Positions 1 to 59,994 of a DNA stretch of 64,000 bases are shown piece after piece. Under the pieces are notes generated by a model. It worked only from the letters and a program-made list of their open reading frames with translations, did no database searches and was not told the DNA's origin. The number at the start of each line of letters is the position of its first letter. Position 1 is the stretch's first letter. The position numbers and the translations under genes are program-made. Source of the DNA: Earliella scabrosa (Eukaryota; Basidiomycota; Agaricomycetes; Polyporales; Polyporaceae); the NCBI GenBank assembly GCA_022605405.1, contig JABYQQ010000001.1, positions 4,464,001 through 4,528,000 on the forward strand, read 5' to 3'.

Positions 1-225
1 CCTCCGGGGCAGACCTGGACACGATTCGGGATCACTAAGCGCCGGTCCTGGTCGCGTGGCAGAGATGGTAATCATTGAGATTCGGTACTACACTGTGATA
101 CACTGAGGAGCAAGATTATGGAGGTACGGTGGGTCTGATCCGTTCGTTGAATGTGGGATACTGAATGTGAGTAGTAGTAGGAGCAGGGGTTGACATGCAG
201 AATGGGTGGGACGTTGAGGGACGGT

Positions 226-8676: not shown

Positions 8677-8961
8677 CGGCAGGAAAGTGACGATGGTAGG
8701 GTAGGCGGTGGAGCGGTAATGAGGGTCCCGGAACGGGTGGGTGAGTGCGTGGCAACATGAGGGGTCCTACTTCCTGGTAAACGTACTTGGATAGACAGAG
8801 TGCGATGTCATACACGGCGGCCGGCGTGGTCTGCCGGTGAACAGCGAACGAGGTGTTGGGGTTCTCATGCTACGGACGGTGTTTGCCGACGGACACAGGG
8901 GCACTGGTGACATTGCATCGAAATGTTATACAGGAATGAGAAGTTTCTCGTGATACTTGGT

Positions 8962-11608: not shown

Positions 11609-12680
11609 TTATATAGTAACGGTACGCCTGTGACGTCGAACAGTGGAAGGTTGGAATGTATAAGCGGACCTAAGGACTTCGTCGTCGCTCGGAATATCAG
11701 GAATGTCGAAGAGCGGGTCTGTAACCAACATCGCGGGCATGGAGATAACTCCTTGCGGTAATATGGGGTCATTGACGGCACATCCATGGGTGCATACCCG
11801 CGTCCCCCACAGACGCCAGACGGCCATGTGACAATAGGGAGGGTGCCTATGGTGGTGGGCGGATTGATAATTATCAGCGAGGGGGTCGATGAAAGCCGAA
11901 AGAGTGCCTCTGTCGGCGAAGTGCCGTCCTTGGTCAGGGCACAGGAATAGATGTCGAGTACAGGGGTAAATCCAGGCGGTAGATGGTGACGGAGCGCCAG
12001 GTGCATACTCTTGCCATCGAGTAGGGTCGTTGGCGAAGGTAAGTCCGGATATGAGCATGGCGGTCAAAGCGTTGACATCGGCATCCGTCAGGATACTGAG
12101 TGCGAGGTCTGAAATGACGCCTCGCCGTGCGAAGGTGAGGGGGGGATAGGCGCAGGCGAAGGACTTCTCCGTGACGAAATTCATCAAGGCAGTCGTCCAC
12201 GTCCGACTAATCGGAGAAAGAGCACTGACTGTACTGGATTCGTAGATGCGGATCTGACGGCCCTCTGTTCCTGTGAAGACCGCACGTCGGCGAATATCGC
12301 GTCGGATACGAACGGGTGTGGCACATTCGGCGACTCCTTTGAACGCGAGGTGGGGACAGATGGAGGGACAGTATATCAGATATTCCACTAGGACCTGGAA
12401 GGAGGCGTCGGTGGTGTAGACGTCGATGACGTGGGAGTCCAGGGTGGGATCTCGGAGGAGGAAGGAGAGTGCGAAGATGCCTCCGATAAGTGCGCGACAT
12501 TCGGTCAGGACACGCAGAAACTCTCTCGCAGTGGGGATGTACTGCTGGAGCATGGACCGTAAAGTCAGTCTGTGGCTCCGGGTAACGTCGGCGCAATTTG
12601 CGCGACATGTAGCTTGCCAACGCAGCATAGAAGGTACGTCCATATGCGACATGATGGACCACACGAGGCTAGGATCGCAT
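11609..12680 (-). CDS. F-box-like / NTase-like family protein, copy 2
   Basis: The main exon runs from acceptor CTCAG at 12681 to the stop at 11609. It begins with an F-box-like helix pair (LVWSIMSHMDVPSMLRWQATCR region), then a GG-x2-AL-x-FLLRDP motif where family members have the NTase-like GS motif, a degenerate acidic site (VIDVYTT), FACAYPPLTFARRG, and the C-terminal signature LCPDQGRHFADRGT then a WRLW...GCA block. The phase-2 intron just upstream matches the intron position in copies 3, 4 and 5; the short first exon was not resolved, so the true start is upstream. By its C-terminus it is closest to the 36 kb copy. Function unknown. Confidence 0.75.
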
Positions 12681-13396
12681 CTGAGAATAGTTAATTAACA
12701 ATGTCAGGAGACGAAGGTTCGTGTTGTAACGTACAAGACGCGCGTAGTTTGCGACTGGGGAAACTGGAGCAAAGCGATGGATCGGGTTGTGGCGTGGCGC
12801 GGCATTGTAGGACACAGTAGTCTTGGTACAGCACGAGTAGTACGTTGTACGGAGTCAGGGGAGTTCTACGACACCTGTATCCTCCATACCGACGTTCTTA
12901 TCGTCATAGATAGTTGCGAAGGTGACGTCAGTCGAAGACTTCTCTGTATACTCTGTGTTGAAGGTAGTCGAGAGATAGACGGTGGGTCCGGCCGACCGAA
13001 GTGGATGACGCGGTAGACGAGGTCTGGCTCTGCAGATGCACGGTGACGCGAGGTTGGTCAGAAGGCGCAATTTGTCATCCCGACCGGTGACGCTCATACG
13101 AGATGGTCCTGATCGAGTAGAAATGGTCGAGAATGACGATAGGTCGGGGTCCTCCAGATGACGACACCGAATAGTCTGTGTCAGTGGAAGCTTGTGCAGC
13201 GTGCTTTGCGCTAGGCTGGAGACACGGTGATCAGGACCGAGTTGTGCGATGACGGAATTGACTTACGGCAGGATATGGGTGTGCCGTGTTTTAAAAGCGG
13301 AAGAGGCAGAGTCCGAGGGCGCGTTTACGATTACAATGGAGGTTAGCTGCATGGGAAACAAGTGTACGCAGGTTATAATGAATATCGGAAGACGTA
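12681..13396. other. Intergenic with one unexplained ORF
   Basis: Contains a 79-codon plus-strand ORF (12777-13016) with no family signature and the unresolved 5' exons of the flanking genes. Nothing here can be called confidently. Confidence 0.35.
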
Positions 13397-22894: not shown

Positions 22895-24037
22895 TCAGGG
22901 ACAGTCAATCCCGCTTCGGTAGTCGCTCGGAGGCCGTTCAAAGAAATTCGTCTTCGTGGAGGCGGCGATCGACTCCATGAAGGGGAACTATGAGCGGTGG
23001 AGTCAGTTCGGTTGGCATAAGAGACTGAGAGACTGCGCGCACAGGGTTAGGCTTGCCGTAGAGGACAGGGAACCCGAGACTCATGAGAAGAACGTCTGCG
23101 ATATGCCGCACGTAATCTCCCATGAGATCGGAGTTCATGCCGATGAGGGGACGCGGCAGTGCGGCTTGCAAAGGAGTCAATGAATGAGTATGCCAGGATG
23201 ATGGAGTGCGTACCGCCGAAGAAAGCTATCTCAATGCGCACTGCTTCGTCCACCATACCGTAAACCACGTCCTTGGGAACGGTGGCATGAAGGAGCTTGT
23301 ATAAGAGACAGGCAAACTGCACGTGAGTGCCCTCGTCCCGTGCAATCATCACGTTGGCTTGAACCAGGCCTGGCATTAGACCGCGCATGCGTAGCCAAAA
23401 GATTGCAGCGAAGGAGGAAGAAAAGAATATTCCTTCCACGATACTGAATGCAACGAGCCGGGTTGGAAAGCCGACGACGGAAGACTCAATCCATTTAGTG
23501 CACCAATCGCATTTGGCCTGCACGACCGGATTGTGCGTGATGGACGAGAACAGGCGACGCTGGTCTGAGATATTCGGCACCAGCTCTTGTACCATGCGAC
23601 TGTAGACCTCTGCATGGACATTCTCTCTAACAGAATCTGAGCATGAGGATGAAGGATCACAGGAGGACTTACATCATGATTTGAACACCATAGAAACAAC
23701 GCGCCTCTGGTATTTGGATCTCTGCGCAAAATCGCTGGGCGAGATTCTCCACAACCAAACCATCCGCGGCGGTGAAGAAACCCAGAACAACAGAGAGAAA
23801 GTCCCGCTCGTCCTCAGAGAGGTCTGCGCTCCATTGGTCGCGATCCTTCGATAGGTCTATGTCTGTAGGAGACCATATCGACCGGTGCGCATCTTTGTAT
23901 GCATTCCATATCTATTCAGAGGCGACGGTGAGTGAGATATAGAGTGTAGTAGTGAGGAAACGTGCCTCTGGATACTGGATGGGAAACAGCACGTAACGCG
24001 ACCGATCGCACTCAAGCAGTGGTTCGCACTGGGACAT
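22895..24037 (-). CDS. Ribonucleotide reductase small subunit (RNR2-like), metal centre intact
   Basis: R2 subunit, which houses the di-iron/tyrosyl radical cofactor for R1. Five exons (24037-23966, 23911-23673, 23626-23214, 23164-23043, 22987-22895) sum to 312 codons plus stop; the first intron has a GC donor (GCACGT). Cofactor residues seen: Asp in AADGLV, Glu in PEARCFYG, Glu-x2-His-x3-Tyr in ENVHAEVY (radical Tyr), Glu in VEGIFFSSSFAAIFWL and Glu-x2-His in RDEGTHVQF. Also LIGMNSDLM and TNFFERPPSDY. It is shorter than usual (about 390-410): the N-terminal ~60 residues are absent, and the protein stops at RSGIDCP without the acidic/aromatic C-terminal R1-docking tail. An undetected last exon is possible. 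Homology is certain; partner binding is open. Confidence 0.92.
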
Positions 24038-24461: not shown

Positions 24462-27400
24462 TGCATCACGAAGCGTTAGAAGCGTTTGCTTCAGACATTG
24501 ATGCCGCGCGCGCACTTAACATACTGAACAATGAAGATAGTAAGTTCGAAGTGTTGAGCGAAGGGCTTCTGACATTAATGAGGGTCCTTTCATTTGACAG
24601 GCGTACTTGAGAGCGGACCCATTGCAGGGCCGTCTCACACACGCGCCGCATATGCGCGAGAATCCGAACGTGAGTGTGATGAACGGCACTGTGGGGTTTG
24701 AAGTACTTAGGATGGTCTGTAGAAGTTTGGGATGCACTCACAGGATCTCGCGCCAACGTAGATCGAACACTGTTAGGTTAGTGACACTCTGATCTTCAAG
24801 AGAAATGTCAACTGACTCTTGCCATAGGACGAGTTAATTGCGTACAGCACGACCGCCCTCTGTTTGAGTGGTGTGCAGAAGGTGATGTCGAGCTAGACAG
24901 GTCACATGAATTCGTGGCGGTTCTCTCCGCATGGGAACGTCTGTCACCGTGCTGCATGACCTTGCACTGCGACGATGTACTGATCAACGCCACTACTGAC
25001 AAATTGTTCACGATATATAGCATGTGGAGGACCGGGGACCTCCGGGAACTTGCCCACGCCCACAGTATATCTCTGATGGCACAGGAAACCAAACAGGGTC
25101 TTCGAGTGAAGATCCTGGAACATGTTTGTACGGAGGACTGCCCCACACTGGTACTCGTATTTAGCACCCTCCATGTGATGCGGTCCGAAGAGAAAGTTGC
25201 GCTCGGTCGGTCGACATTCAGTATACTTCACCACAAAGGAGATGAGTCGAGGTCTTTCATGGAGGTGGTCGACGACGATCTGCGCCGCTCGATCATACGT
25301 GAGTACCAGGAATTCATGTCTACGGCTAACTTTACAGAGCTAGTATGTGCGGTGTGTGGACGAGGAGTTCGTGAAAACGTGGCGAAGCGAATCCACGCGT
25401 CTCACGTCAAGTTGTCCTTACTCAGGAACGAAGGTTTACCTGACAAGGTGCGCCCGTCCACCTATGATTTCAATCTCTATGGCGGAGCTTTGCTGTGCCC
25501 AGATGGCCTGTCAGAGCGGTGGATGCTCGGAGAGCTGACAATGTGCGGCGTGTGTTATCGAGAAGTAGTTGAGGTGGAGAGGATGCCAAAATTGTCCCTG
25601 GCCAATTGGCTATATTATGGACGGGATGAGCTACCGGCGCCGGTGCGAGATGCCTTTAGGTGCAGCACTCAGTGCGATCGTCTATTGGTGGCAAGAGCTC
25701 GGGGTAGCAGAATATCGTTCCGATTCACAGAGCTCCAGGCGAAGAAGAAGGGGAAGGGACAGAAGGAGGAATCACGTCGTGGACATTGTGCGGCCGACCA
25801 GCGTTTCGTGAAAGGTAACGTCCTGGTGATGCCTCAGAACTCGACTACGTTCAACCAAGTATTACCGCCTCCCCCGTCTGTCATCCGTGATACTGTGTGC
25901 GCGGTCTTCATTGGGCAATCACCTCCCACCAAAGACACCATCGAGGGCCTGGGACCAATACTAGCGCGGAAGTCAAGGGTGAGTACAATCATTCAGTTTC
26001 TGGTTCAGGAGAACGACCACTACATGTGCGATACGTCGTTTCATGGGTATTCAGCGCGGAATATGGACCTGTTATTCGAAGGGCAGATGTTAGAGAACGA
26101 CGAGGGCGTCCCGTGCGCGATGGAGATAGGGTATGTGAGGGACGCTGATGGGACACGCAGTGTAGGCTCAGACTACACGAACCGTGGACGTATGCCGGAG
26201 CCGCCACTCACGGGCAACGAGGTCCTTATGGAGAATGTTGGTTATACGTCCGGGGATGACTCGCCGGTCTCGTATAGGGATATGAAAATGAAGGCACTCA
26301 TGCACTGCTTGGCAGGAGGCAAGTTCGTACAGTCCAGGGCGGGAGATAGATTTATACCTGACTTCGAGAATCCAAGTCTCATGACATGGATGTTCCCCCA
26401 TCTGGATCCATGGGGTATCGGTGGATTTCATCAAGAAGAGCGGCTGATACCTCTGTCGATGGAGGAGCAGCTGCGCTATCTGTTGGAGCTGCACAAGAGT
26501 CCTTTTGCCAAGGACGCAGACTTTGCATTCGTCTACTATAACATCTTGCAGAAGAAGCAGGTATGTGATTCTGTGAAGTTCAAGGTCAAAGCCTCCCAGC
26601 AACGGGAGATCGTCAATCGCCTACTGAGTGTGGATAGAGATCTATTGGGGAGGCTAATCGAGAGTTACAGAAGGAACCCAGGTTACGAACCAAGTAGTAT
26701 GGATGAGAAGTCATTACTTGCCTTGGTGAACAAGGTAGGCGCAGTTCTCCATGATATACCTGGCACTTCTGGGTACAAGATCAAGATGCGTAACGAAATC
26801 CGTGGGCTTGTGACTCATCTGGGTACCCCCGCCTTCTTCATTACACTGAACCCCTCAGACATACACCATCCTCTCGTGAGGCTATTCGCCGGAGAGAATA
26901 TTCAATTAGAGGACATCGAATCGGGCGAGGAGTTGAGCGAGTGGGGTCGACGATTGCTCGTAGCTCGTAATCCAGGGGCGTGTGCTAAATTCTTCCATAC
27001 AGTTATCTCTTCATTCATCAGCGTCATTCTTCGTTACGGACGGAAAGATCGAGGCCTACTGGGTGTGTGTTCGGGATACTACGGTACGGTGGAGACTCAG
27101 GCCCGGGGAACGTTACATTGCCATTTCTTGATTTGGATCAAGGGTCACCCTTCCCCTCAAAAAATGCGGGATCTAATGGTGAATGACGAAGAATATCAGA
27201 AGGACATGTTCGTCTGGTTGGAGAGCTTAATCAAATGTGAGCTCATTGGTTCTACTGGCGTTGTCTCGGAGCACAGCGGTCAGACATTGCAGCGCCCGAG
27301 ATACTCCGAGGGAGATGGATATGTACACCCAGGAATGCGACCAGGACCGATGGTCCATGAGTACACACCAACACAATTCAAAGTCATGTATGATGATTTT

Positions 27401-30400
27401 GTGAATGAGCTGGTGCAGCAGTTCAATTGGCACGAGCACGCCGATACTTGCTGGAAGTACCTGAGGAAAGGACAGTCTAAAACCGATGCAAACTGTAGGA
27501 TGCGCATGGACGGGTCTACTAGGGCAACAACAGTCATCGACGATGAAACTGGTTCGATAATGCTGCGGCGCCTGCATCCATGGATCGCAAGTTACAACGA
27601 CTTGATCATGTTCGCTGTCAGATCGAACATGGACATAAAGCATATCGGTTCAGGTGAAGGTGCGAAGGCTCTCATATACTACATCACAGACTATATTACG
27701 AAGGCCAATCTGCCTACTGAACTGGGTCTTGCCGCCCTTCTATACGCAATCAATAGAACATCGGAGAAGTACAAGGGTGTAAGTGAATGGGAGAAGAAGA
27801 GCACAGCGGGCGCTGTCACGATTCTGATCAACAGTATGCTGAGCAAACAAGAGATGTCGCATCCCCAGATTATGAGTTATCTAGTTGGGGGTGGCGATCA
27901 CTATACAAGTCATAGATATCGTGTGCTGCACTTCGGGGCGTTCGAACGTACTGTCGTGAACTTCTGGAGGGAACATTCACCAATCATAGATGTGCATGGT
28001 GAGCGGACCGCTGAGGACGAGGTTACCGATCGCATAGACGTCGATAACGACCAGGACGATCGTTCAGTCCGTGGTGCGGCAGTTGGACGGGACAATGACG
28101 AGAATATAACGCTTGCTTTGGGGGCAGGGTCAATCTCGGCCATTAACCAGCAACAGGACTATGTATACCGTCCCTCTGATAGCGAGTTTGTCGATATGTG
28201 TCTGTATGAGTTTGTGGGATTGACCGAGAAGATCACTGTGAAGGCGGAGGAGCGCAGACTAGCAGGGAGAGTTGAGAGACAGTCGTTTGATGCGAGACGT
28301 GGCCGACCCGAGGAAGCGCGAGGGAAATTCATAGATGGGCATCCACAGTGTGAGACGCATGTACTGAGGAAGCGGGTGTTATGGGTGGTTCCGGTGATAC
28401 TAGGGGACAGAATACCGCGGCGCGACAGGTCAGAAGATGAGAAGGAGCTGTGGGCGCGGACCATGATCATGTTCTTCTTGCCATGGAGATGTCCCGGGGA
28501 CATGAGACGAGCGACTGAGACGTGGTCCGAAGCGTACGACCGAAAAGAACACCTCATAAAAGAGGGTTATAAGAGTATAATGGAGAACATGAATGTGTTG
28601 TCTGAGTGCAAAGATGCGCGGGATCGAGTCAGTAGGATGCGAGCCGCGAGATTGAACGGCTCACCTAGAGAAACTGGGTCTGTATCTTGTCCTCATATCA
28701 ATAGGGATGGAGATGAGCCGGGAAATGAACCGACGGGGATTGAATTAGACGGAGAGCCGGAGGAGCCGACCGAAGAAGATGCACTGGGGAGCTTAGACGC
28801 TTTGGTGACTCTGCCAACCCGGTTATCGCTGGACTTGTGTTATGCCGCAGGGGAGCAGTCAATCGTGGAGCCGGCGTACGGAAGTGCCACAGTCACTAGT
28901 GACGCCGATAGAGCTTCTCTCGCAGACGAGCAACGGCGTATGATTGACTTGAAGCGCAAGCGGCGACCAGAACCGGAGGACGACGGTGGAGATAGCCACA
29001 GACACACTCGGCGCCGAGGAAATCAGGATCCCGTTATGGAGATAGGAAGTCTAGCTGAGTCTGATGATGTCGGAACGAGCAGTGGAAGGCACATGGCAAC
29101 AGACCCAGACTATATCCTAGGGTTCGCTAGCCACATCGTGTCGGAGTTTGGCCTAGATGGGAATGAAGAACAGCGTCGAGCATTCGATATAGTGGCTCGA
29201 CATGTGGCGGACGGCGACAACCAGCTTCTAATGTATATTGGTGGTGTAGGTGGAACAGGGAAATCCCACGTCGTGAATGCCATTCTAAAACTCTTCGAGT
29301 TGACCGGACGGCGAGAGGAAATCCAGGTGGCTGCGCCTACGGGCGCGGCGGCAATCCTCATTGGTGGATATACGATCCATTCATTGGTGATGTTGCCAGA
29401 CCGGAAGGGATTCGACTGTGGAGAGCTGCAGAGTTTATGGGCAAAAGTGACATACCTGATTATAGACGAGGTGTCTATGATAGGTGCGAGACTCATGAGT
29501 CAGATTTCCAACAGACTACAACGAGCCAAAGGGATGTCGGCAACAGCCGGGGACCTACCATTCGGGGGCGTCAACGTAATATTTACCGGCGACTTCGGAC
29601 AACTTCGGCCGGTGCACGACAGCCCTTTGTTCAAACACGAACTTGTCCGCAGCCCTGAACTTCAGAGGGCAAGTACCTTGGCCGACGTCAGTCCGTTAAA
29701 GGGTGTGTACCTGTGGAGGTTGGTGAACACAGTTGTGTTGCTGACGAAGAACCAGAGGCAAAAGGAAGATGCTGAGTACGCAGAGCTGTTATGTCGAGTG
29801 AGAATTGGCACACAGAGGTCAGGACGGGATCGAGCAGCGGACAAGGACTTCTCTAAGTTACAGGAGAGGCTCTTACAGAACATCAGGAGACGTCACGGTA
29901 GGCATGAGCTACGGAAATTCAAGGATGCGCCTATTATCGTAGGAACAAGGCGCCTCCGCAACCTCCTCAATGCTCGGCTTCTCCGTCACCACGCAGCTCG
30001 CATTGGTGCTATTCTTGGTGAGTATCGCTCAAGAGACTATGTGCGAGGAGATGATCCTTGTACTGCTGACAAGAAGGCGTTGTGGCAATTGCAGAACACA
30101 TCAACTATGGACTGTCCGGGGCGTTTAGAGTTGTTTCCAGGGATGCGGGTCATGGTTCAGGAGAACTTAGCGTTCACCAATAACGTGGTCAACGGTGCCA
30201 TCGGAACAGTTCGTGACATCAAGTACGAGGAGGAAGATGGCATTCGGTATCCAACAGTGGTGTATGTGGAGATTACCGGAGCTGGGCGGATCTGCGGACG
30301 CGGTGATGATGATATAGTCCCAATTTTCCCCGAGCGGCGCACCTTCGACTGGATAAGGACGACAGGAAGGGACGGGAACCGCGTGGATGTAGTCAAGGTA

Positions 30401-30703
30401 ACACGTATGCAGTTACCTATTTTACCTGCTTACTGTTTCACAGATTACAAGGCCCAAGGACGATCCTTGGAGTACGCGATACTGGATCTCAAGAGTGTGA
30501 AATCACTACAAGGGGCTTACGTGATGCTGTCTAGGGTGAAGAACTTACGGGGAATGGCGATCATGCGCAGCTTCCACCAGAGGAAAGTGTTTCGATGCCT
30601 TACAGGAGAAGTCAGAGAAGAATTTGCAAGATTGGATTCCCTGGATAGGCAAACCGAGCGCCGCCATCGCAGGAACGTCATGGAGTCACAGTTGAACTTG
30701 TAA
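24462..30703 (+). CDS. Helitron Rep/helicase (HUH endonuclease plus Pif1-type helicase)
   Basis: Rolling-circle transposase. The main exon is open from about 24829 to the stop at 30703, over 1,950 codons. Small upstream exons starting at ATG 24462 are plausible but tentative. Domains in order of the main exon: SAP-like LRELAHAHSISL; Cys-rich DUF6570-like region (GALLCPDG, MCGVCY); Helitron Rep domain with FFITLNPSDIHHPL, the HUH motif GTLHCHFLIW and the two-Tyr motif YYITDYITK; then Pif1 helicase with GGVGGTGKS (Walker A), LIIDEVSMIG (Walker B), GDFGQLRPV, PGMRVMVQENLAF and the C-terminal YKAQGRSL...AYVMLSRV block. All key motifs are intact with no stop or frameshift, so this may be recently active. 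Confidence 0.92.
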
Positions 30704-30785: not shown

Positions 30786-31229
30786 TGGAAATCGGTGAAC
30801 GATGGGAGGATAGAGCAGTGTCTACCGATCGAAGCGCCACAAATATCGATCTGGGCAAGGCGAAATCGTCATCCGTCGTCACAAAAGGGGGTATTGCATC
30901 ATGGATACTTATGACGAACGGTCCGGCATGGATCAATGGGAACGTCCCCCGATCGAGCCTGGCGTGATACGTCCCTCTCTAAAGGTGAGTACTCAGACAT
31001 TAGCAGGACTACAGATGTGGAGCTACATCCTCGCATATATGAATCTGCCCGGGGACAGACACCGTGTTGGATGGCCAAGAGCAGCCGCGCTCTTCACGTC
31101 TGTTTCTATCTCTCAGCATGACCACGGTATGAGCCGACCATAGGCACATTAAGACGTTATTGATTGTTGGGTTCTTAGGTTGCACCTTTTTCCTCGACGT
31201 ACTCGGCTGAACGTGTCGAAGTGGACTCG

Positions 31230-32388
31230 ATGTCGTCCAGATCGTCGTCTACTGGAAGGAACATTACGACGTACGGAATCCTATCCTCTTCCTGTATCAT
31301 CACAACTAATCGTCTGCAGTCTTGTCGCTGAATTGCAGGGGATGTTCGCCGACGAGATGGACATAGTATCTCTGCTACAGTGGCGCGCCGCCTGCCGAGT
31401 GAACTACGAGAACGCGGTTGGTTCACTAAGGCGGTTCCTGATGAAGGTCATCGGGCACTTCTTCAAGCACCCATCGGTCATCCTTTCGCAGCTATCGGCG
31501 TCTCGCGCTGTCGTCGGAGGGATCGCGGCGCTGCGGTTCATCCTTCGAGATGCCTCCGTCGTGAGCGATACACTCCAGATTTACACCACCGGCATGTGGT
31601 ATCACCGTCTTCTCGACATGGTCAAGCATCATTCCAAGACTCGAGAAGACGTTGTCGCGAGCTGGAGTCCTGGCGTTCGACCGACCCATGTTTCAGAGCG
31701 CGACATCCGGGCGCAGACCTTCATGACCCTTCACAACGGCCGAACGGTTGTGGTTTACCAGACCGCTGCTGCTAGTCCGTGTTCTGCGATCTGCCGGTCG
31801 CCGGTCTCTGCGTTAATGACATTCGTCACGGAGCACACCTTTGGGTGTGCGTACCCTCGCCTCACACTCCGACGCCGCGCTTTGCTATGCGATCTACGTC
31901 TCACAAATCCAATGGCAGGCGATCGTGCGGCTTTCGATGCACTGGGCGCGGCTGGCTTCAATTTTGCACTTCGTGCAGGGGTGTGGGAGGATTTGAGGCG
32001 GTCCGCACGTCGAGAAGGCGAGGATGATCCAGATATGTGCCTTCGTCGACTGTACCTATGCCCACAGCAAGGAAGGTACTTTGGAGACCGAGGTTCCTTC
32101 GTCGGTTTCTTAGATCCTCTCTCGTCTCCCCCTTCGAGTCTCTCCAGAAGAGCCATCCCACCGTTCGGGCCCATGATCGCTTGGCGTCTATCCTCATCAT
32201 TCAACTGCTCCGAACATTGTGATAGAGCAGATCCGGTGCTGCACGAGTGGTTGGTGTCAACACCCACGATGTTATTACACGACTCGCGGAACGGTATTTC
32301 GTATGCTGGCGTCCGCATACAGAATAAAAGAACCGATGAGAACGAACGCCGGGCCAGAGGCAGAGGAAAACGAGGGACATCGGTGTGA
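31230..32388 (+). CDS. F-box-like / NTase-like family protein, copy 3
   Basis: Two exons (31230-31270; 31320-32388) joined by a 49-nt phase-2 intron sum to 370 codons including stop. Features in order: F-box-like LVAELQGMFADEMDIVSLLQ then WRAACR; GGIAALRFILRDAS; a degenerate acidic site LQIYTT; FVTEHTFGCAYPRLTLRRR; C-terminal signature LCPQQGRYFGDRGSFVGFLD; and a final DPVLHEWLVSTP block. The last ~35 residues are basic (RRARGRGKRG). It is closest to the 47.6 kb copy, sharing both the FADxMD and the HEWLVSTP text. Only 0.5 kb separates it from the Helitron stop; a separate short ORF at 30901 may be an alternative first exon. Confidence 0.82.
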
Positions 32389-35876: not shown

Positions 35877-37040
35877 ATGGGGACCACGATGCAGGACACC
35901 GCCGTCAAACGTGCGATGTGAGTCCAAAACCCTATGTCGGAATAACCGTCAATGACCTTCTGCACCAGGGACAACGACGATTTGCTGGCACACATGTCCC
36001 GCTCAATGGACCTCGTGTCGCTGCTACACTGGCGCGCAACTTGTCGCGTTGCCTACGACGGGGTCGTGAAAGACCTCGGAGAAAGTCTCCGCAAGATTCT
36101 TCTGCCCATCATCCCATGTGCATCGGAGTTCCTTCGCACGTTGACCAAGTGTGGAGGTGTACTTGGAGGAGAGGCTGCGCTGTCGTTCTTCCTGCGGGAT
36201 CCCTGCTTCGAGGTGTCTCAGATCGAGATATTCGTCACCGACCACGGTTTCCCTATCCTAATCGACTTCTTCTCATCATCTCCGTTCCTAGCACAACGCG
36301 CCACCCTGGAGTCCATCACTACGCCGAGCGCTGCTTTCATTTCTCAACGTGAAATCGCTCGCTACGCCACCATCTACACTGCAGATGGAGGTATCATCAT
36401 AATCAACGAATCAGTCACCATGAGCCCCTGTTCGCCCATTGCGCGGAGCTGGACCAGTGCTCTCATCAACTACGTTTCTCCGCACTCCTTCGGTTGTGCG
36501 TACCCACCGCTCACATTCAATCGCCGCACGGTCGTATCGGACATGTCCCTCGAGAACCTGACCAACCAAGACGTGTGGACCATGGCCGAAATGACCAGTT
36601 ATGGCTTTTCATTTGCCCTGGATCCTTCGCGTTGGCCAGAGTACCGTCACCCACGCTCAAAGTTCGTCTCTCCTGGCATATTCCCCTGTATGAGGAAGCG
36701 ATTCTTGTGCCCAGACCAGGGTCGCTACTTTGGCGATCGTGGCTCCCTCGTCGACTTCTTCCGACCACTATCGGATGGCCCCACCTTTCTCAAAGAGCGG
36801 AGACTCCCTCCATATGGCCCCATGGCCACTTGGAGGTTGTGGATCACTCGAGTATGCGACTCCGGCTGCGCGCGAGACGACCCGCTTCTAGACGCGGGCC
36901 TCATATCTATTCTCACACTCATCGTCGATGATCCCTTGATTGTGAGCTGCCCGCCCCCAATCACACGGCCCACTTCCATGCCTGCTGTGTCGATGAGGTC
37001 ACGGCCGCTCCCCGGACGGAGAAGAGCAGATAGCGTCTGA
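35877..37040 (+). CDS. F-box-like / NTase-like family protein, copy 4
   Basis: Exons 35877-35917 and 35969-37040 flank a 51-nt phase-2 intron and sum to 371 codons including stop. Contains the F-box-like MDLVSLLHWRATCR, GGEAALSFFLRDPC, degenerate acidic site IEIFVTD, SFGCAYPPLTFNRR, C-terminal LCPDQGRYFGDRGSLVDFF and a RVCDSGCARDDPLL block. It is closest to the 11.6 kb copy on the opposite strand. The first exon is 41 nt, exactly as in copy 3. The C-terminus is Arg/Pro-rich. Function unknown. Confidence 0.82.
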
Positions 37041-41420: not shown

Positions 41421-42077
41421 ATGGCCTGGCGCATCCGTGTCCAGCGCGCCGACCCGGTCACAAACGGTGATTTACGTTCGCAAGTAAGTCCGAGCGTCGT
41501 CGCAGGTACTAATGATCGCTTACGGCGCAAACTAGCGCTTTCAAACATGTCCGAGACTCGCCTCAGCACCTACAAAGCCATCAACACATGGAACCGTGAA
41601 GCCCGAGTGAAGGCATATGAGGTATGTCGTCTATACACACTTAGTTATCAAGAAACAACCCTCAACCTTCAGTTCTAACAGTCAACTGGCGGCAAGCTGA
41701 TTAAAGGACTCCTCTACGGAGTGTCGTCGACGAGGCCCCGCACGATTCTGTTTCCAGTGCACACGCAGCCCGACGATGATCACAGCGCCTTCGGGTGGAT
41801 TGACGACCTCGACGTGGCGCACTGGTTTCCATACGGTCACCGTCGCCGCTCGATCGGGCGTGTCCCCACAACCAATCTCCCCCTTCGGAACGCATATACC
41901 GTCATCTCAGCTGCCGACCCGGACCGCGGAGCCGTTAACGCGGCTCTGGAGCAACGGGTGCACATCCACACCCGTGGCAACGTCATTGTATTCCGGCACG
42001 ACGCTCGTCATCCGCTCAAGGCCACAAACATAGCCAATGCAGAAACCCCTCTCATCGATCTCATCGTTCGGAGGTGA
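41421..42077 (+). CDS. Uncharacterised protein
   Basis: Not recognised. ORF from ATG 41421, spliced over an intron starting GTATGT at ~41623 into a long exon ending at 42077. The last exon looks like real globular protein: GKLIKGLLYGVSSTRPRTIL, then FGWIDDLDVAHWFPYGHRRR, then GNVIVFRHDARHPLK and a terminal TPLIDLIVRR. An additional GTAAGT...CTAG pair inside exon 1 would break the frame, so it was not used. The TATATAAAC box upstream fits an expressed gene. It is followed closely by another plus-strand unknown gene and RNR1-B. Confidence 0.5.
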
Positions 42078-42596
42078 GTTCTTCCACACGTCACCATGTA
42101 GATCGCAGAACTCACCAAACGGAAAGTGAGCTCGGCAAGACGCAGGGGAAGCAGCCATCCAGATCGCGCATGACTCATCGTCGAGGTACTTGAACTCTCT
42201 CGATGCATCTCGCACTCGATTGTGTTGTCATGCCCGCCTCGTCCGCCAAATTTTGTACTTAACTAAGCGCTGTTGATCGAGCAAAGAGCTCCACCGTCCC
42301 GATACGCTCAGGACGTCATCCAAGACCGAACCGACGGCATGGGCGATGCCAGAACCACACCTACGAATGCGCGTCATCATATATATAGTTGATCTCCCGA
42401 TCTAGACACCGCCCGGCCGATATGCGTCTGAAGGTGGCTGTGTGGGACGGGACAAGCTGTCAACGTCACTTTCTCCAGATACCCACACAGACGCCACAGA
42501 ATGCAAAGACCGTGGCACGCCGAGTGAGTGACATCACCTGCAGAACCACTTCATATGCGCAGCGTGGCCTTCCATTCTCACTGACTGAATCCGCAG

Positions 42597-43392
42597 TCAC
42601 CGCCGCACTCCAGCACGCGAGTGCTACGCCGCAACGACCAAGAACATTGATCTGCACGAGGATTCCATGCAGGCCTCCGACGAACGCAGCACCGCCTACT
42701 CACAAGAGCCGCAGCCTTCACCGATTGTCTTTCCGGACTGGGTACCCACCGTAATTCGCCGGTAATGGACTCCTCTTCACTCGATTAAGCGGTACTCTCA
42801 TCAGAAGGTTACAGGCGGATTCTGAGGCATGTCGTGTATTCATGTGACGCCGACGTCACCTACGCCATCGGAGCGTTGCCGCTTAACGCTACTCGATGGA
42901 TCTCCGTGTCTGCCATAGAAGATCGCGCCTTGGCAGTCGACAGTCGAATAGTCACGGTGCACGCGATCGGGCTACTTTCCGCTGCCAGATTCACCGTCAG
43001 TACTGGAGCGCCGCCATCCTTCGAGGTCGCAGTTGATCTCTTGCGGCACGAAGACGCGGTCGTACTGAACGCACTACGTGGCTCTGATGAGAGACACCAG
43101 GCATCATCCGAGCCTTTCATAGCTTCCAGAACACTCGATCATCACGCAGAAGTTCGTGCATCTCATTCACTCCCCCATCGACACTAATCATGTGAGCAGA
43201 TCTTCGCACTGGCCTACGATGCAAGTCAGCGCATCCGACCAGGTCACCAGTGCATTGCATTCTCATCCGTCCGGTCGGGCGACGTAGTGCTCGCAAAATG
43301 TACAGCGCGCATGGACCCCCAGGGAAATATGTCATTCACGTTAGACGCACTCTATGTAATGTACAGGACACCCAGGATCCGACTCGCTCGAT
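42597..43392 (+). CDS. Uncharacterised protein, 5' exon unresolved
   Basis: Not recognised. Three exons read continuously: an acidic segment (KNIDLHEDSMQASDERSTAY, ending FPDWVPTVIRR), a beta-rich segment with TYAIGALPLNATRWISVSAI and SRIVTVHAIGLLSAARF, and a last exon from ~43200 with SGDVVLAKCTARMDPQGN. Introns start at the GTAATG after VIRR and the GTTCGT after HHAE. The last segment loosely recalls the GD-V-x-F stretch in the 4.5 kb protein, suggesting an OB-like or other small beta domain; this is weak inference. The first exon lies somewhere in 42380-42523. The gene ends 355 bp before the RNR1-B start. Confidence 0.45.
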
Positions 43393-43747: not shown

Positions 43748-46710
43748 ATGTCTACTCTCAACAACGACCTCACGATTATCAAACGAAGTAAGTGGTCCAT
43801 ACATTCGTGTACGACAAGATGACGTGACCAATCCCGTACATAGACGGGTATGGTCATCCAAGGGACGGCATCATCTGTGTCTAATCGGGTTACCCTCAGG
43901 TTACGCGAGTTATTCGATGCTGCCAAGGTCAGGACATTAGCTGGATTACTCTGACGGTGCACGCGTTGAACCATATGCTCACCTCAGTACACACGGTTCA
44001 TTCGTCGGGTTAGTGATCATTCAGGAGAGCACTTGCGGTTACCAGTGACATCTTGCATCAGTTGTCTGGCGATCTGGTCAAGGTGCTAGGCTGTATAGAC
44101 ATGTAAGTGTCGAGGACCGGTCAAGACACATGTTGCTGATTGCGATATGGCCCTTAGGCTGTGCACAACAGTTCAAGCTCGACTCGGGCAAGAGACGCGC
44201 TCTGAGGACTTGCTGGTGTGTCATCAAGATCACCTCTCACCACCAAGCACGCTCAAATCAGTGTGCGCACAGATTCTCGCTGCCCCACTCTTCGCCGACA
44301 TGGGCAAGTACCATCACGACTACCTATTGCTAGGGGGCAGAATCTATGCAGTTTACCTCCACCGTTCCATTGCTATGAAATTCAGTGCGTGGATGGAGCG
44401 CACGATGGAAGGTAACACAGTGCCCAACTCACTGCGCTCGTTGCTGTATGTCGTGCTGACAAATTATATCTAGCCCGAGTCATTCCGTTTGACCATGACA
44501 TTGTGGACGCCGTCCGGGCATCTCCCGACGTAATAGATTCAACCATCGACCATTCGCGGGACTACAACCTTACCTAGTAAGTCAGTCCCTGCACTACGAC
44601 AACCACTTTGCTAATGCGCCAAAGCCCGGAGCTACACGGTTTCGTGGCAGCGTGCGCTCGTCATCATGCTGACCGGCCAATTGAACTGCCGCAATTCGTC
44701 TACATGCGCATGGCTCTCACCATCCATCGGAATGATCTCCCTATGATCATAGAGACGTACCGCGCGCTCTCTCGACGAGATATCTTGTACCCCGCGAAAG
44801 TCATGCACGCCGCTGCTACTACCGATGGCATCTATCCAAGCACATTCATCTACCAACCGTCACAGCCTGCGAGCCGTCTTTATTCTTCTACGAGCGAGCT
44901 CGACGACATATGGAGCAACGGTGGAGCAGCGGGGATCTCCCTGTCAGGGGTTCCTGCGCGAAGGCAAGTACCAGACGGAGCTGATTACCCCATACTAACG
45001 CCGCAATGCATAGAATGAAGCCTACCAAAGAAGCCGGCGTGATGTCTGTTCTCCAGGGCTACGACGCACACGCGGGCTATCACGCAACAAGGTTCGACAG
45101 GAGAACCCCGATCGGGACCGCATACCTCCCTGTGTGGCATGCAGAGGTGGAGAACTTCATACAGTGCAAGACGGAGGACGCAGTTGCCGGCGAGCGCATT
45201 CTTCATCTCGCGACTGTGGTCTCATTGCCGGATATCTTGTAAGTCAACTCATCGCCGCGCACACACCTGACTCACACACCTGCAGCATGGAGAGAGTTGA
45301 CTCTCGGAGGCCGTGGTCACTCTTCGATCCTGTTGATGTACCAGATCTACAGACGACATACGGGGACCGGTTCTCTGCTGCGTACACAGCCTATGAGTCA
45401 CAAGGGATCGCAGTCAGCGAGGTTCAGGCAGAAGAGCTTTGGTACTCGGTCTGCGATGCTCAGCGGCGGTCGAAGTACCCGCTCTGCGTCTTCCACTGCG
45501 CTCTCAACGGTGGGATGCCTCAACTCCATCACTTTGCATGTACTCACCTGTCCTCAGAGAAGAATACGCAGGCACATTTGGGCGTTATCCACGCCGCGAA
45601 CGACACGACAGGTCTCGTGCAACATGCCTCTACCTCCGAGACTCCCGCCACAATACCCGCGACCGTCGCACTCCAGAACTTCGTGGATTCCAATGGAATC
45701 TACGACTTCGCCAAGTTACATCGCGCGGTCAAGCTCGCCGTGTATGGATGTGACCGTCTCATCGAAGAAACGACGTATACATCTCACAACTGCATCACCA
45801 CGGTCCTTCGTACTCGCGGACTCTCAATAAACACAGTCGGGCTAGCGGACGCCTTCATAGCCTCGCGGTTCCGATACGGAGATGCAAATTCCCGGTTGCT
45901 GAATGTGGACATATTCGCGACAGTGTACCACGCAGCACTGGATGCCAGCTGCGATCTCGCGCAGAAACATGGCCCATACCCGAGTTGGACTGGCTCGTGT
46001 GCTCGTCTCGGCATCCTCCACATGGACATGTGGCCGGCCTTCCCTGAGGCGCGATTTGACTTCGACGCCCTTAGACTCAGGATCGCACGCTTTGGCCTTA
46101 GGAACTCTGTGGTAACGGCGCAAAGCTGTGACATCTCGAGCGACTATGTTGGACAGCACACCGTCGGCGCGGGACCTCAGCACAGGTATGGTATCACGTT
46201 CGATGACGTACATTGCACTAACGCCTTGTAGCAATGTCATTGTCTATCGAGACGGTGAAAAAGAGTATACAGAAGTCCGTCCGTCATTAGTACGAGAACT
46301 CACGAACCTCGGAATGTGGAATGCAGTCACGAGGACGTCTATTGAATGGACAGGTGGTAAGTCCCGTCGTCCCCCGACGTTCGTTCGAACGGCTCACATA
46401 TGTGACGGCGTTCCTCGCGGTTCACGACAGGCTCCGTTCTCCACCTCCCGGACCTCCCGAACGAAGTCATGGACATTTACTACACCGCCCGGGAGATAAA
46501 CCCTGTCATAGCTCTCGATATGGCGGCTGAGCGTGCTCCATACATAGAGCAAGCAGAATCCATGAGCATCGATATGCCCGGAGCCACTGTTCGGACTCTG
46601 GTACGCGCCCCTTCAGATTTGCCAGAATCCCGTTGACAGGCGATGTATAGCATATCCTTCAATGTCGCGCGTGGGACGCGGGCATGAAGACTGCAGTCTA
46701 CCGGCCGTAA
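43748..46710 (+). CDS. Ribonucleotide reductase large-subunit pseudoenzyme (RNR1-B)
   Basis: R1-fold homologue with 15 exons (40, 4, 28, 21, 41, 58, 139, 103, 339, 225, 224, 628, 125, 170, 60 nt) summing to 734 residues plus stop. Ten exon lengths equal those of RNR1-A, including the 4-nt exon at 43844-43847; all introns are GT-AG except a GC donor at 44964. Homology is clear in HHDYLLLGGRIYAVYLH, IIETYRALSRR, LNVDIFATVYHAALDASCDL and ERAPYIEQAESMSI. Catalytic sites are lost: SCF becomes STF; NLCTEVV becomes NDTTGLV; the third cysteine (CTLAS region) is gone; PTAST is gone; the Tyr pair becomes YR; the protein stops at VYRP before any redox tail. It therefore cannot work as a normal R1. An intact frame across 14 introns argues that the protein is maintained. 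Confidence 0.92.
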
Positions 46711-47440: not shown

Positions 47441-48671
47441 ATGGTACTCGATGATAACTCCACTGCCGTGCAGGATACAGTTACCCAGCAGGCGGGTGCA
47501 ACTCAAAACATTGTCATAACTCAACCCAATCCCCTCACAGCGGACAATATACTAGAGTGAGTATGCCCCTTCCGTCGCACCGGTAAAGTTCATGGACTGA
47601 TAGACTTGTTCCAGCATCGTCTCTGAGATTCAGGCTATGTTTGCCGACGCAATGGACATGCCGTCCCTCGTCAACTGGCGGTCCGTCTGTCGCCAGACGT
47701 ATGAAGAGTCTACAGGTTCACTCAGGCGTGCAGTCATCGCCATCCTCACGCCATTCTTCCCACACACCGCGTCCTTTCTCCGTATCCTCACAAAACACCG
47801 GGCAGTTGTTGGAGGAGTTTCTGCCATCAGCCTCGTTCTCCGCGACCCATCGATAACGTGCGATGTCCTTCAAGTCTACGCGGGGTGCTTCACGTACCAG
47901 TCCCTGGTCAACAACCTAGAACAATGCCCGCAAACCGCAGCCATGATCACCTTCCGGGACACATGTGATGCCCCCGAACGTTTCGTTCTGGACCGAGACA
48001 TCACCTCCATCACCACCTTCTACCTCCGAACTGGGAAATTCCTAGTCGTCTACAAGTCCAGCGTCGTCAGCGCATGCTCGACGATCAGTCGCTCGCCCAC
48101 GACAGCTCACATGACGTTCTTCACAGAGCACACCTTTGCGTGTGCATACCCGGCACTCACCTTTTCCCGTCGCGCCATCATGGCAGATCTTCGCATGGAC
48201 AGTCGCTGCGAGACGGATCCAGTAGTGATGGAGGCACTGACTCGTGCCGGGTTCGAGTTCACGGTGAACCCAGCTCATTGGCCGGAGTACAAGATGCCCG
48301 AGGGGTCGGTGAACCCTTCGAACACGTACGCTTGCCTGCGAGAGCGGTTCCTCTGTCCCGTACAAGGGAGATATTTTGGCGATCGCGGCTCCTTCGTCGG
48401 GTTTCTCGATCCACTCGCGCGGGACCCACGATCCATCCGCGCTGCCAATGTGCCGCCATTCGGATCCATGGTCGCGTGGCGGCTGTTCACGAGCTACGAC
48501 TGTGCCGAATCCTGCGATATTCTTGATCCAATCCTACACGAATGGCTCGTCTCAACTCCCATACTTATACTCCCAGATCCGTTCCGCAAGAAGTCACCCC
48601 AAATTCGCATTGTCTCCGCCCGCGAACAGGGCGCATCTCGCCCTCGGCGGTCTCGTTCATTCTCGATCTGA
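47441..48671 (+). CDS. F-box-like / NTase-like family protein, copy 5
   Basis: Exons 47441-47556 and 47615-48671 flank a 58-nt phase-2 intron and sum to 391 codons including stop. Order: a Thr/Gln/Asn-rich N-terminus, F-box-like IVSEIQAMFADAMDMPSLVN then WRSVCR, GGVSAISLVLRDPS, degenerate acidic site LQVYAG, FFTEHTFACAYPALTFSRR, C-terminal signature LCPVQGRYFGDRGSFVGFLD, and DPILHEWLVSTP. The end is Arg/Ser-rich. It is closest to the 31 kb copy, with a longer first exon. It sits immediately after RNR1-B on the same strand. Confidence 0.82.
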
Positions 48672-56767: not shown

Positions 56768-57827
56768 GAAGCCACAACCGTATTGATCCAGCCTTGAAAG
56801 TCTAGAAAACAGGTCACCTGCATGCACTTCCGAGTTAGCATTCAAATCACACCTTAGAAGCATGAGACCATATGCATAAAGCTGATTTGAATTGTCAGCA
56901 ATCTGTAACTCCACCCGATATCAATAACAACCCACACAGTATAGTTATCGACCCATAGAGGATGTCTCCATAGACTTGTTTCATATTTCATAACCCTTTC
57001 TGATTAAGCCTAAAGTCAATGTACGTTAGCAAGGAAACTCATTGTAAATTGATCATAAACAGACACATTACCTGTGGCATAAACGTCGGCATAGAACCTT
57101 AGCGGCGACAAGACAAAAGCGCGAACAAAGGGCCCTCACCCACCGGGTATATATATAGGGACCAGCAGACGACATTGACTAAGTGACAATTACAAACTCG
57201 TCCACTGCATCACCAGTCTCACCATAGCATCACCAAGGTCCCATCAATCCACAGTCGCCAAGTCTGCCTACCGTGATGGTAAATAATTAATCAGCGCCCA
57301 CGAGCGCCACCGCGTACTGCCCGACACGACGACCAGCTAGGTATGCGCGGACCACCGCTCTGGCACACAAATTCAATCCAAGCCATCACTACTTACCAAT
57401 ATTGTCGATGCACTACTGATACTCAATAGCATACCTCCGAAGACGACTGCGCGACCAGTACCTACCAGTATTATTGATGAGTAATAGCCGACAATGCACC
57501 TTGGAAAACGACTGCGCCACCAATGACACACAATGACGCCATCCCCGGACCGTCGGACACCACGGCGTCCGATCCCCGATTCTGCCGTCATCTCATCCAT
57601 GTCATGCACGTCATAAACGGTCCGAATAACCGCCAACATGCCGCGCCCAACATCCGTCCATTTGTTCGACCGGCACTACGTCACGTCCCCTCAAAAGTCA
57701 CGATCGGCCGATTGACTTGAGCATCGCCAAACATAAGTAAGGGCCGTCTGGTGAGGTAGTCACCTCCACACACTGCTCACCACGCAATCCCTTACTCACC
57801 CCGCTCCAAGACACTTAATCCGCGACC
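56768..57827. other. Intergenic, no supported gene
   Basis: Contains a TATATATAGG box near 57160 and a loose duplication around 57390-57530 (segments with CCAATATTGTCGATGCACTA and CAGTATTATTGATGAGTA-like text). No protein-coding support. Confidence 0.35.
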
Positions 57828-59994
57828 ATGACCCCGCATTCTGACACGCCCACGGCGGCGAAGATCACTCGACCTTGTTACATTGTCAATAGGCCAGTCA
57901 TCCGTGCATCTCTTCACCAACGCGACGCTGATCTGACGTCGAACGCCCCCAGGTTACCCCCTGAGCTCACCGAGTTTATCACGGACGATCTCAACATATT
58001 GGACGTTCTAGCATGGAGGGCTACATGTCGCTCGACGTATCGGAGAGTAGCGGAATCACTCCGGAGCTTTCTGCGCCGCTCCCTGACACCTGCACACGAC
58101 ACCCCCAGTACTCTCCTCTCTCTCCTCTACAAGTACAGGATCCTCATAGGAGGCGAAGTGGCCCTCAACTTTGTTCTTCGAGACCCTTCCTACCAATACA
58201 GCTCCCTCGAACTCTATGCACCCTGCCCATGGTACCCACCGTTCGTAGACGCTCTGCGCGAACTCCTCGGTACCTCAATCGCAAGAGAAACCTACATCAA
58301 CCGCGCTCGTTACGGCTTCATCGACTGGCATGAATGTGCTTATATCACCCTCCAGAATGGGTTCAAAATTGCGGTGTACCAGTCCCCAACCCCGAGCGCG
58401 CTGTCCGCACTCTGCCGCCAGCCATGCAGTCTCCTTATTAACTATGTCACGACCTACTCCTTCGGATGCGCCTACCCACACCTCACCCTCCAACGACAAG
58501 GACTACTCGCGGACTGGGCGCTCCACGTCACAACACCCCTCGACTTTCAGATCATGAACTCCCTCAGCGACCAAGGGTTCAATATCTCATGGAAGCCTGC
58601 CGACCTCGAACTTGCCGACTCTCCTCGAACCTCCGGCGCTCTTCGTCTCCGATCGGTATCAGACTCCGCCGCTCTCCACACCCACACTCCGTCCTACCCA
58701 GAGCACTCCTCACCAGTCAACGAAGCGACCGATGCCACGGACATGCATATCACCCCCCAAACCGAGGATGACGTGGCACACAATACCAACCCCGACCTGG
58801 CAGCCTCTACGGACGACGATCGTTATCGGCCGATTGCATCTTACTCCCCATTTCAATTCTCCGACACCGGACGCGCCCTCCCTTACGCCGTGCACCAACG
58901 CGGACACATGCACCCCTCCGTCCTTCCAATTTTCCCAAGATCCATACCTAAACAACCTCACACAGCTGTCTCTGCTCCCCCACGTCACCTCCCTTTCCAG
59001 CAACCGGTAGATACCCGCACGAAGACACCGACCTCTAATCCTCCTGACCGCACTGGCACTCTGTCCAGATCTCAGTCTGCGCCTCCGCTCTCACCGCCAA
59101 TGAACCACACACTCCCCTCCACCGACGTCCTGCACACCGAAACTATCGCCCACACAACTCAGCATCTCCTTCAATCGTCATCGACCGTAACGATTCCTGA
59201 ACACCCGTCTCTTCCTTCAACACCTATACCCAACGGTCACAGCCCCCTCCCTTCGCTCCACACGCAAGATGCCCTTGGTGACCGAACCCCTGGCTCAGCC
59301 TCGACCCATTCTAACGACATTGCGCCGACGACTGACTACGATCACGACCGTATACACATGCCGATCCCGACATATGCTCTCGCAACCCCTGTACTGCATC
59401 CACCTATCGGTGAGTTCAATCGACGTCCTGCTCGTTGCATCTCGCCTACTGATATCATTCCTCCGCGACACAGAAGACGACAACAACAACGACATGTTTT
59501 CGGCATCCACCCCTTCTTCCAACTCGGCCGATGATATCGACATCTACTCTGACCTCCATTCTCCAGTGTACGAACTTCCCGCAACACACAGCCACCGCTT
59601 CCGCTCCTCGTGGGGAGCCCCGCCGTCATGGGAGTCCGGCATGTGGGATTACCAACGGCCCAAGCGCCCGTGCTACGTCGAACAGAACATGTGCCCACAG
59701 CAATTCCGTTACTTCGGCGACCCCCCTTCACTCATAGACTTCATCGACCCGCTCTCCGGCGACCGAGAGCGGGTGGAGGAACAATGCATGCCCCCGATGG
59801 GCACTGTCGTTATTTGGAAACTGTTCAGCTCATACCAGTGTTGTCACAAAGGTCTATGCGGCTGCATCGTCCCCAGCTACTCATACGAGAGGGACAACAA
59901 CCTCTATCTCGCATCCATGCCCGGACAGAATACGTTTGACCGTTCCGATCCTCGTAAACACCCTCCCATCACCACTCACTGGTGGGAATACTGA
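57828..59994 (+). CDS. F-box-like / NTase-like family protein, copy 6, with long disordered insert
   Basis: Two exons (57828-59409; 59474-59994) around a 64-nt intron give exactly 701 codons including stop, almost twice the other copies. Order: F-box-like LPPELTEFITDDLNILDVLA then WRATCR; GGEVALNFVLRDPS; acidic-site position LELYAP; YSFGCAYPHLTLQRQG; then roughly 300 residues rich in Pro, Ser, Thr and His without homology to the paralogues; then the family C-terminus CPQQFRYFGDPPSLIDFIDP and a WKLFSSYQCC block. Unlike copies 2-5 it lacks the intron before the F-box but has its own intron near the end of the insert. Function unknown. Confidence 0.82.

Follow-up and report, generated by a model that had tools for sequence, protein, structure and literature searches.

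The stretch analysed here (the window) comprises 64,000 nucleotides of the genome of Earliella scabrosa, a wood-decaying polypore of the Polyporaceae (contig JABYQQ010000001.1, positions 4,464,001 to 4,528,000), and positions without a contig prefix refer to it. Two genes for the large subunit (R1) of ribonucleotide reductase (RNR) were found in it, RNR1-A (A) at 226..3325 on the minus strand and RNR1-B (B) at 43748..46710 on the plus strand, together with a gene for the small subunit (R2) at 22916..24019 on the minus strand and a Helitron-type RepHel gene at 24785..30703 on the plus strand. On their gene content and synteny, A, R2, B and RepHel belong to a large Helitron-like element, of which the genome has about two dozen copies, and B is not a decaying host gene but an R1 pseudoenzyme kept by mobile elements.

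RNR1-B and its lost active site

The RNR1-B gene contained 15 exons coding for 733 amino acids (aa), as defined by the spliced frame, intron borders, Pfam matches and a table of catalytic sites. Exons 1 to 8 were located at 43748-43787, 43844-43847, 43900-43927, 43988-44008, 44062-44102, 44158-44215, 44273-44411 and 44474-44576, and exons 9 to 15 at 44625-44967, 45021-45238, 45286-45509, 45558-46185, 46232-46356, 46431-46600 and 46651-46710. The spliced frame was 2202 nucleotides (nt) long, equal to 734 codons including the stop, and the 14 introns measured 46-74 nt each, all 14 with GT...AG borders. Ten exons (4, 28, 21, 41, 58, 103, 224, 628, 125 and 170 nt) had exactly the lengths of their counterparts in RNR1-A. 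Both the 15-exon frame with its 14 working introns and the ten matching exons had been read by the first-pass annotation of this DNA, and both were reproduced in the final model. The gene corresponds to an annotated Earliella scabrosa protein of 592 aa.

Pfam analysis of window B showed the PF02867 barrel at 2-522 of 523 positions (317.8 bits) and the PF00317 alpha domain at 31.1 bits (cut-off 28). The ATP-cone scored 14.4 bits, under the Pfam cut-off of 25.8, and the scan of B revealed no N-terminal extension or additional domain. The host's own R1, used for comparison, was located on contig C9 (C9:77974-81198, 12 exons, tail CLMCSG). Relative to it, the first, second and third catalytic Cys of window B were each replaced by Thr, NLCTE had become NDTTG (so that Glu was changed to Gly besides the second Cys), PTAST was replaced, and the Tyr-Tyr pair had become Tyr-Arg. 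The C-terminus read ...AVYRP, the Cys-containing tail being gone, while window A retained it (...TECCGA). Window B still had the first Tyr of the pair and the Asn of N-x-C-x-E. The earlier statement that all catalytic residues are substituted was therefore a small overstatement; it holds for all three Cys, Glu, PTAST, the pair's second Tyr and the tail. Of the features of a catalytic class I R1, window B showed the barrel and alpha domains and lacked the catalytic Cys, Glu and Tyr pair and the redox Cys pair.

B-type genes were found at 14 loci in the genome, or 12 when a tandem trio on C1 is counted as one. The trio (C1:2418576-2449965, the first copy being L038) consists of three B genes at a spacing of about 15.2 kb, each with an open reading frame (ORF) of the F family described below beside it. 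Nine loci were modelled; two more, on C17 and C25, were read over the C-terminal part, and an annotated protein, P0124, was also included, while P0001 and P0002 were omitted as duplicates of window B and L036, respectively. All three Cys were gone in all nine modelled B copies and the Tyr pair was present in none. Among the nine, Asn survived in three, Glu in one (L038) and the first Tyr in four. The C17 and C25 copies had lost the second and third Cys, the first lying outside the part read. The 628-nt exon was uninterrupted in all nine modelled copies and in C17 and C25. Outside Earliella, a European Nucleotide Archive (ENA) metagenome fragment (P0125, a 1273-base contig) was B-like, with 89 percent identity to the C9 B over 37 percent of the query; most of its 628-nt exon was open, and it seemed to run out of frame at the end.

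Selection on B and its descent

Codon models indicated that B is under purifying selection. The ratio of nonsynonymous to synonymous substitution rates (omega) was 0.052 under the MGK model and 0.042 under the GY model for set B1 (4 sequences, 386 codons), 0.067 and 0.049 for B1b (3 of the 4 sequences of B1), and 0.079 and 0.072 for B2 (4 sequences, 355 codons). The four A partners (403 codons) gave 0.040 and 0.027, respectively. These are the last values in each log; earlier values were somewhat higher, at most 0.092 in the B sets and 0.052 in the A partners. Under MGK, the log likelihoods with free omega and with omega = 1 were -5103.7 and -5360.3 for B1, -3910.9 and -4086.9 for B1b, -4026.7 and -4249.1 for B2, and -4496.8 and -4908.1 for the A partners, so that freeing omega gained 176-257 log units across the three B sets. 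The runs with omega = 1 used a fixed kappa of 2. L039, with a long branch and irregular exons, was kept out of the codon models, as were L018, L024, L026 and L031, whose automatic splice models contained small false introns at points of interruption or divergence of the gene; L026 was kept in the pairwise comparison. In the B pair L033/L034, where silent sites were clearly unsaturated, the pairwise synonymous distance (dS) was 0.63, the nonsynonymous distance (dN) was 0.045 and their ratio was 0.072 over 562 codons. Close A pairs gave dN/dS of 0.05-0.10, L016/L017 gave 0.19, and the near-identical pair L026/L027 gave 0.47 at a dS of 0.01.

The first-pass annotation had held that B is maintained against neutral change and had named a dN/dS near 1 as the outcome that would tell against it. 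Omega of 0.04-0.08 over the three B sets and the L033/L034 ratio bear the claim out. The codon models rule out a neutral pseudogene. A decaying pseudogene that keeps its frame by chance could point to the lost catalytic residues, to incomplete N-terminal models in L032-L035, L038 and L039 and to irregular exons in L032-L034 and L039. We find it hardly credible given the low omega and the likelihood gain, the 14 GT-AG splice pairs of window B and the open 628-nt exon in nine modelled and two further copies, all of which already contradict it.

The pattern of retained residues was also uneven along the protein. Among 318 sites invariant in A (in at least 9 of 10 rows), 84 were kept in 8-9 of the nine B copies, and 58 were kept by no B copy at all. 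Retention was lowest at host positions 200-224, 425-449 and 600-649 (0.17-0.33), round the former active site, and stood at 0.5-0.9 over most of the barrel. Trp728 and Lys733 of the last helix, which we take to participate in binding the R2 tail, were kept in at least eight of nine B copies. Host Asp410 was replaced by Cys in all nine B copies, and the same Cys was found in the C17 and C25 loci and in P0124, while Asp was present in 21 of 22 A-type, Cerioporus, Ganoderma and Trametes rows. L016 was left out of the A set for the retention and fixed-site comparisons, and L009 and P0006 were left out of the latter as well. As far as these alignments can tell, neutral decay would produce neither the retention pattern nor a fixed Cys confined to B.

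The gained Cys, which in seven of nine B rows is preceded by another Cys at a distance of four residues, would suit a new activity of B, for example thiol or metal chemistry. We consider such an activity improbable, since only two sites are fixed differently between A and B and a lone Cys may be structural.

In the phylogenetic tree the nine modelled B copies formed one group with support of 100/99, which branched off where an 11-row clade of A copies separates from the remaining sequences, including the host R1. The partial or damaged A loci L029, L030 and L031 were left out of the tree and of the site table. The grouping of the B copies is consistent with their single origin from an A-like gene. 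Of the 11 A rows in that clade, 9 came from elements that bear a B, and none of the 9 A rows outside it did (Fisher p 0.0003), the rows not being fully independent, as with the near-copies L026 and L027 (99 percent identical). Protein distances of A and B were correlated across eight elements (r 0.88), and 5 of 40320 permutations were as high in a Mantel test covering 8 of the 12 B loci. In the same eight elements the distances were 0.39-0.73 for B and 0.29-0.44 for A. From the clade association and the correlated distances, B and A have most likely travelled together.

Gene content, copies and ends of the Helitron-like element

In the first-pass annotation, A, B and R2 were read as a normal fungal set of RNR genes. 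That view had to be abandoned, as these genes belong to a Helitron-like mobile element and the host R1 is located elsewhere. RepHel is a single ORF of 1972 aa with DUF6570, Helitron_like_N and PIF1 helicase regions, identified from Pfam (PF14214 and PF05970), motifs and synteny with a locus on C10. It contains the HUH motif (LHCHF), YYITDY and Walker A, so that window RepHel combines the HUH nuclease and PIF1-type helicase that characterise Helitrons. The window and the C10 locus (in reverse orientation) showed colinear homology from 328 to 46704, with the shared order A, A-adjacent gene, F ORFs, R2, RepHel, F ORFs, B-upstream gene and B.

A genome search with RepHel gave 31 matches, which merged into at least 24 loci, a lower bound with the best 24 of 128 candidates scored. 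R2 lay less than 10 kb from RepHel at 22 of the 24 loci, head-to-head in all 22 and with a gap of 812-1035 bp in 20. RepHel was present within 60 kb of 22 of the 28 tabulated A loci and within 40 kb of 11 of the 12 B loci (the C1 trio counted as one), the expectation for random places being about 4 percent. A chance insertion of a Helitron between A and B is ruled out by the C10 RepHel synteny and the head-to-head R2. Matched stretches at the RepHel loci were 47-65 percent identical to window RepHel and 20 of the 24 had no stop, which indicates that the elements are old, diverged and largely intact.

An adoption of B for a host function, with its location in the elements incidental, would fit the purifying selection, which is silent on the beneficiary. 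Against it stand the 14 B loci, 11 of 12 near RepHel, and the co-divergence with the A of the element. Among the matches listed, the best ones outside Earliella were A-type, ordinary or separately degenerate R1 (P0006 of Ganoderma sinense), none of them B-like except the metagenome fragment P0125. We judge host adoption a little less probable even than the new activity considered above.

The A genes appear to encode active enzymes. According to its splice model and the site table, window A has 15 exons, one GC donor and a Cys-Cys tail (ECCGA), and its protein measures about 777-781 aa, exon 10 having two variants. Of the 28 tabulated A loci, 20 were modelled and the remainder were called A from score and position. 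All three Cys, Asn, Glu and the Tyr pair were kept in 19 of the 20, and a CxxC or CC tail was present in 17 (exceptions L010, L016 and L018); a loss of the redox tail in A, considered at one stage, was overturned once the models reached the stop. In the L016 copy (C25:324500-333000), Ser stands in place of the first Cys and the Cys tail is missing; over its 3' part this copy shares 92 percent identity with the adjacent copy L017. In R2, which spans several exons and was identified by PF00268, by alignment to an R2 of known structure and by synteny with C10, the aligned part retains ENVHAEVY, VEGIFFS and RDEGTH, motifs that presumably contain the iron ligands and the radical Tyr. Loop 2 of the host R1 (RATGSYIAGTNGYSN) was replaced in all modelled A and B copies, mostly by a VPxxR..QPGV-type stretch. 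With this loop lost, feedback control is probably altered, and normal control of specificity is probably gone even in the active-looking A.

The remaining features of the window are as follows. A conserved spliced gene lies beside A at 4574..5275, assigned to the plus strand from the better tblastx frames and supported by tblastx and synteny. The F family consists of ORFs of about 360 aa, several per element, with 77 genome matches, mostly at these elements; its members had paralogues and no Pfam domain, and no credible structural relative was found for the family (best E 0.17). Window members were found on the minus strand at 8870..9907 and 11609..12694 and on the plus strand at 31153..32388, 35946..37040 and 47604..48671, the last directly downstream of B and with relatives adjoining B in C9, C1:5022k and C5. 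A long F-related ORF at 57819..59534 (plus strand) had its best other match in C10, about 19 kb past the B of C10. Immediately upstream of B is a spliced gene at 41679..43373 (plus strand), similar by tblastx to one in C10 and with its part 41679-42095 found in eight other loci. Among 19 window ORFs no Pfam match was found to the DUF3435 tyrosine recombinase of Starships, the spliced genes being only partly scanned, or to capsid, DNA polymerase or packaging genes, in a scan that was not exhaustive.

The A-side terminus of the element is a hairpin, GTCCAGGTCTGCCCCGGAGGGCCC..CCTAT, whose start lies at 1..20 on the minus strand; it extends about 12 bases past the window edge, as read across the edge in L007. 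In L026, L027 and L014 the identity ceases right after the hairpin, a few hundred bases 3' of A. A hairpin near one end at which identity between copies stops, as in Helitrons, was thus found. Among 19 full A loci that were fetched, 12 had the motif at most 0.6 kb from the A stop and one had it at 2.1 kb; with window A, where it was equally close, it lay within 0.6 kb in 13 of the 20 modelled copies. It was missing in 6 of the 19 within the 2.3-3.5 kb searched and present in all three partial or damaged A loci. The 20-base hairpin core occurred 117 times in the genome at three or fewer mismatches versus 22 times for a reversed control, and it was often remote from R1 genes, which is expected if shorter elements use the same end. 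Terminal hairpin copies far from any listed R1 were seen, for example, at C2:726750 and C6:1207734, and such remote copies may mark small non-autonomous elements.

On the B side, the C9 and C1:5022k copies aligned through B and stopped at C9:1732959 and C1:5021902, respectively. The C9 copy, the best bounded, extends over about 41.4 kb from 1732959 to the hairpin at C9:1774337. The left boundary of this pair reads about GATGTATATYGGTCG; the motif was exact only at its two source loci, other occurrences had three mismatches and were near the control level, and it was absent from the window. The A-side ends were ...CTAT or ...TTAT, and the canonical Helitron1 ends (5' TC, 3' CTRR) were not found. 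RepHel pointed away from the hairpin end. As the left motif is unshared, the ends are not TC/CTRR and RepHel is directed away from the hairpin, the element is called Helitron-like only.

Related sequences were found elsewhere in the genome. Two RepHel genes, each 47 percent identical to the one in the window (C2:323461-329391 and C8:1868448-1873868) had no R2 within 100 kb and apparently represent a related lineage free of RNR; 68 PF14214 matches indicated further Helitron lineages. At C1:5060798-5083553 (L030) the A gene is seemingly split by about 20 kb, its front ending near 5061943 and its end and terminus lying at 5082283-5083553. Element pieces were located less than about 10 kb from contig ends at C3:1674-3070, C7:2595586-2596982, C5:582-1901, C10:1774-2663 and C1:2912-10364, the C3 and C7 pieces being seemingly identical, and a subtelomeric bias of the elements is possible.

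A genome search with PF02867, in which the best 82 of 125 candidates were scored, gave at least 99 exon matches at about 45 places, making A and B two members of a large family. The two strongest R2 genes adjoin each other on C5 at a distance from the elements and probably belong to the host. A-type R1 proteins were also found in Lentinus brumalis, Cerioporus squamosus, Polyporus arcularius, Ganoderma leucocontextum and Daedaleopsis nitida (best 120 of 7918 matches, sequences inspected by eye). In Ganoderma sinense, two R1-like genes bear the consecutive numbers GSI_12238 (P0006) and GSI_12239 (P0004). GSI_12238 shows a change of the first Cys to Ser and of Tyr-Tyr to Tyr-Cys, clusters with GSI_12239 and apart from B, and may be an independent start on the same route as B.

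The role of B and its known parallels

We regard it as very probable that the element maintains B as a non-catalytic R1. That B further acts as a partner or regulator in the RNR of the element is, on sequence evidence, about an even chance. Under this proposal, A and R2 would supply the element with its own deoxynucleotides (dNTPs) for rolling-circle replication, B would be a non-catalytic subunit binding A and/or R2, of the element or of the host, and the bound B would set the assembly or activity of the RNR. Common descent, co-divergence, the retained domains and the retention of Trp728 and Lys733 favour such a partnership.

Several observations weigh against the account given so far. The joining of B with the A clade, with host R1 as the outgroup, had support of 92/90, below the level starred by the tool, and the B branches are long. 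None of the 9 A copies outside the one clade has a B nearby, and two copies inside it, L020 (C37) and L016 (the neighbour of L017), lack one as well. Of the 36 B pairs, only 4 had a finite dS; their ratios were 0.07, 0.12, 0.14 and 0.29, the last three near saturation, and the other 32 pairs, including those with window B, were saturated. Between window B and its nearest relative the silent sites were saturated, with proportions of differing sites of 0.78 (synonymous, pS) and 0.30 (nonsynonymous, pN). Residues invariant in A at host positions 225-299, which we take to form the dimer interface, the specificity site and loop 2, were kept in B at only 0.32-0.44, and this poor retention makes a canonical A:B dimer doubtful. 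The A and B genes also lie on opposite strands, 40 kb apart.

The main rival to a partnership within the RNR is that B faces the host as a scaffold or decoy, neutralising a host factor such as an RNR regulator or a component of silencing or of the DNA-damage response; by analogy this is possible, and we hold it on the whole unlikely. The inactive R1 proteins of betaherpesviruses are its closest functional parallel. Cytomegalovirus UL45 is described as an inactive homologue of the cellular R1, with inhibition of RIP1-mediated signalling named in the title of the source (PMC5469499), and the RNR of human herpesvirus 6B (HHV-6B) is described as having lost enzymatic activity, the title reporting that it sequesters NF-kB p65 (PMC11772975). 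A host-facing B would also agree with its divergence, which is faster than that of A, and with the poorly kept host positions 225-299. The missing N-terminal extension or extra Pfam domain speaks against it, as does the low overall omega, which is a whole-gene value and not a site-by-site one.

B resembles the R1 relatives of human and murine cytomegalovirus (HCMV UL45, MCMV M45) and the HHV-6B RNR in being an inactive R1 relative kept by a genetic parasite. Unlike them, B shares its element with an active-looking R1 and an R2 and has no added N-terminal domain, and it clusters with the R1 copies of fungal elements in a tree without herpesvirus rows. With the fungal and eukaryotic class Ia R1 (RNR1/RRM1), B shares the fold family, domain order and exon pattern. 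The 4-, 28-, 58- and 224-nt exons are common to the host R1 gene, A and B, and a profile of the C-terminal part of seven B copies matched yeast and human R1 over positions 1-400 of 401. B differs from class Ia R1 in having no three Cys, Glu, PTAST, Tyr pair or redox tail.

Fungal Helitrons with additional genes have been described. HELPO1 and HELPO2 of Pleurotus ostreatus possess RepHel, a subterminal hairpin and extra genes, with one to four extra genes in HELPO1 copies (PMC4289320). RepHel, hairpin and cargo genes are common to them and to the present element, which differs in being of the 41-kb class with R1, R2 and a pseudo-R1. The Helitron2-type FoHeli of Fusarium has non-canonical hairpin ends, an ORF orientation that can become reversed and lengths of about 5-11 kb, against about 41.4 kb here (PMC5148889), and TET/JBP dioxygenase genes are reported in fungal Helitrons (PMC12730594). 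The term reductase was absent from the main texts of these three papers. No RNR-carrying Helitron and no fungal R1 pseudoenzyme was found among the matches listed from the open-licence PubMed Central literature. The finding is a combination, not found described, of two known kinds, the Helitron and the R1 pseudoenzyme.

Taken at its widest, and tentatively, since we put it at somewhat below even, the picture would be one of giant rolling-circle transposons of Polyporaceae that carry their own R1 and R2, with the host-type loop 2 replaced and R2 placed head-to-head with the replicase, and in one lineage a dedicated pseudo-R1 with a new invariant Cys that controls the RNR of the element or of the host. 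Large DNA viruses often bring RNR to feed their replication, and a family of transposons carrying RNR blurs the boundary between virus and transposon. It predicts that dNTP supply is limiting for rolling-circle transposition of a 41-kb element. In about a dozen elements of one genome, selection has kept a pseudo-R1 next to an R1 that looks active, a natural experiment on the roles of R1 beyond catalysis, for which the only parallels known to us are herpesvirus proteins acting on animal immunity, and the role of B would be directly testable with three recombinant proteins.

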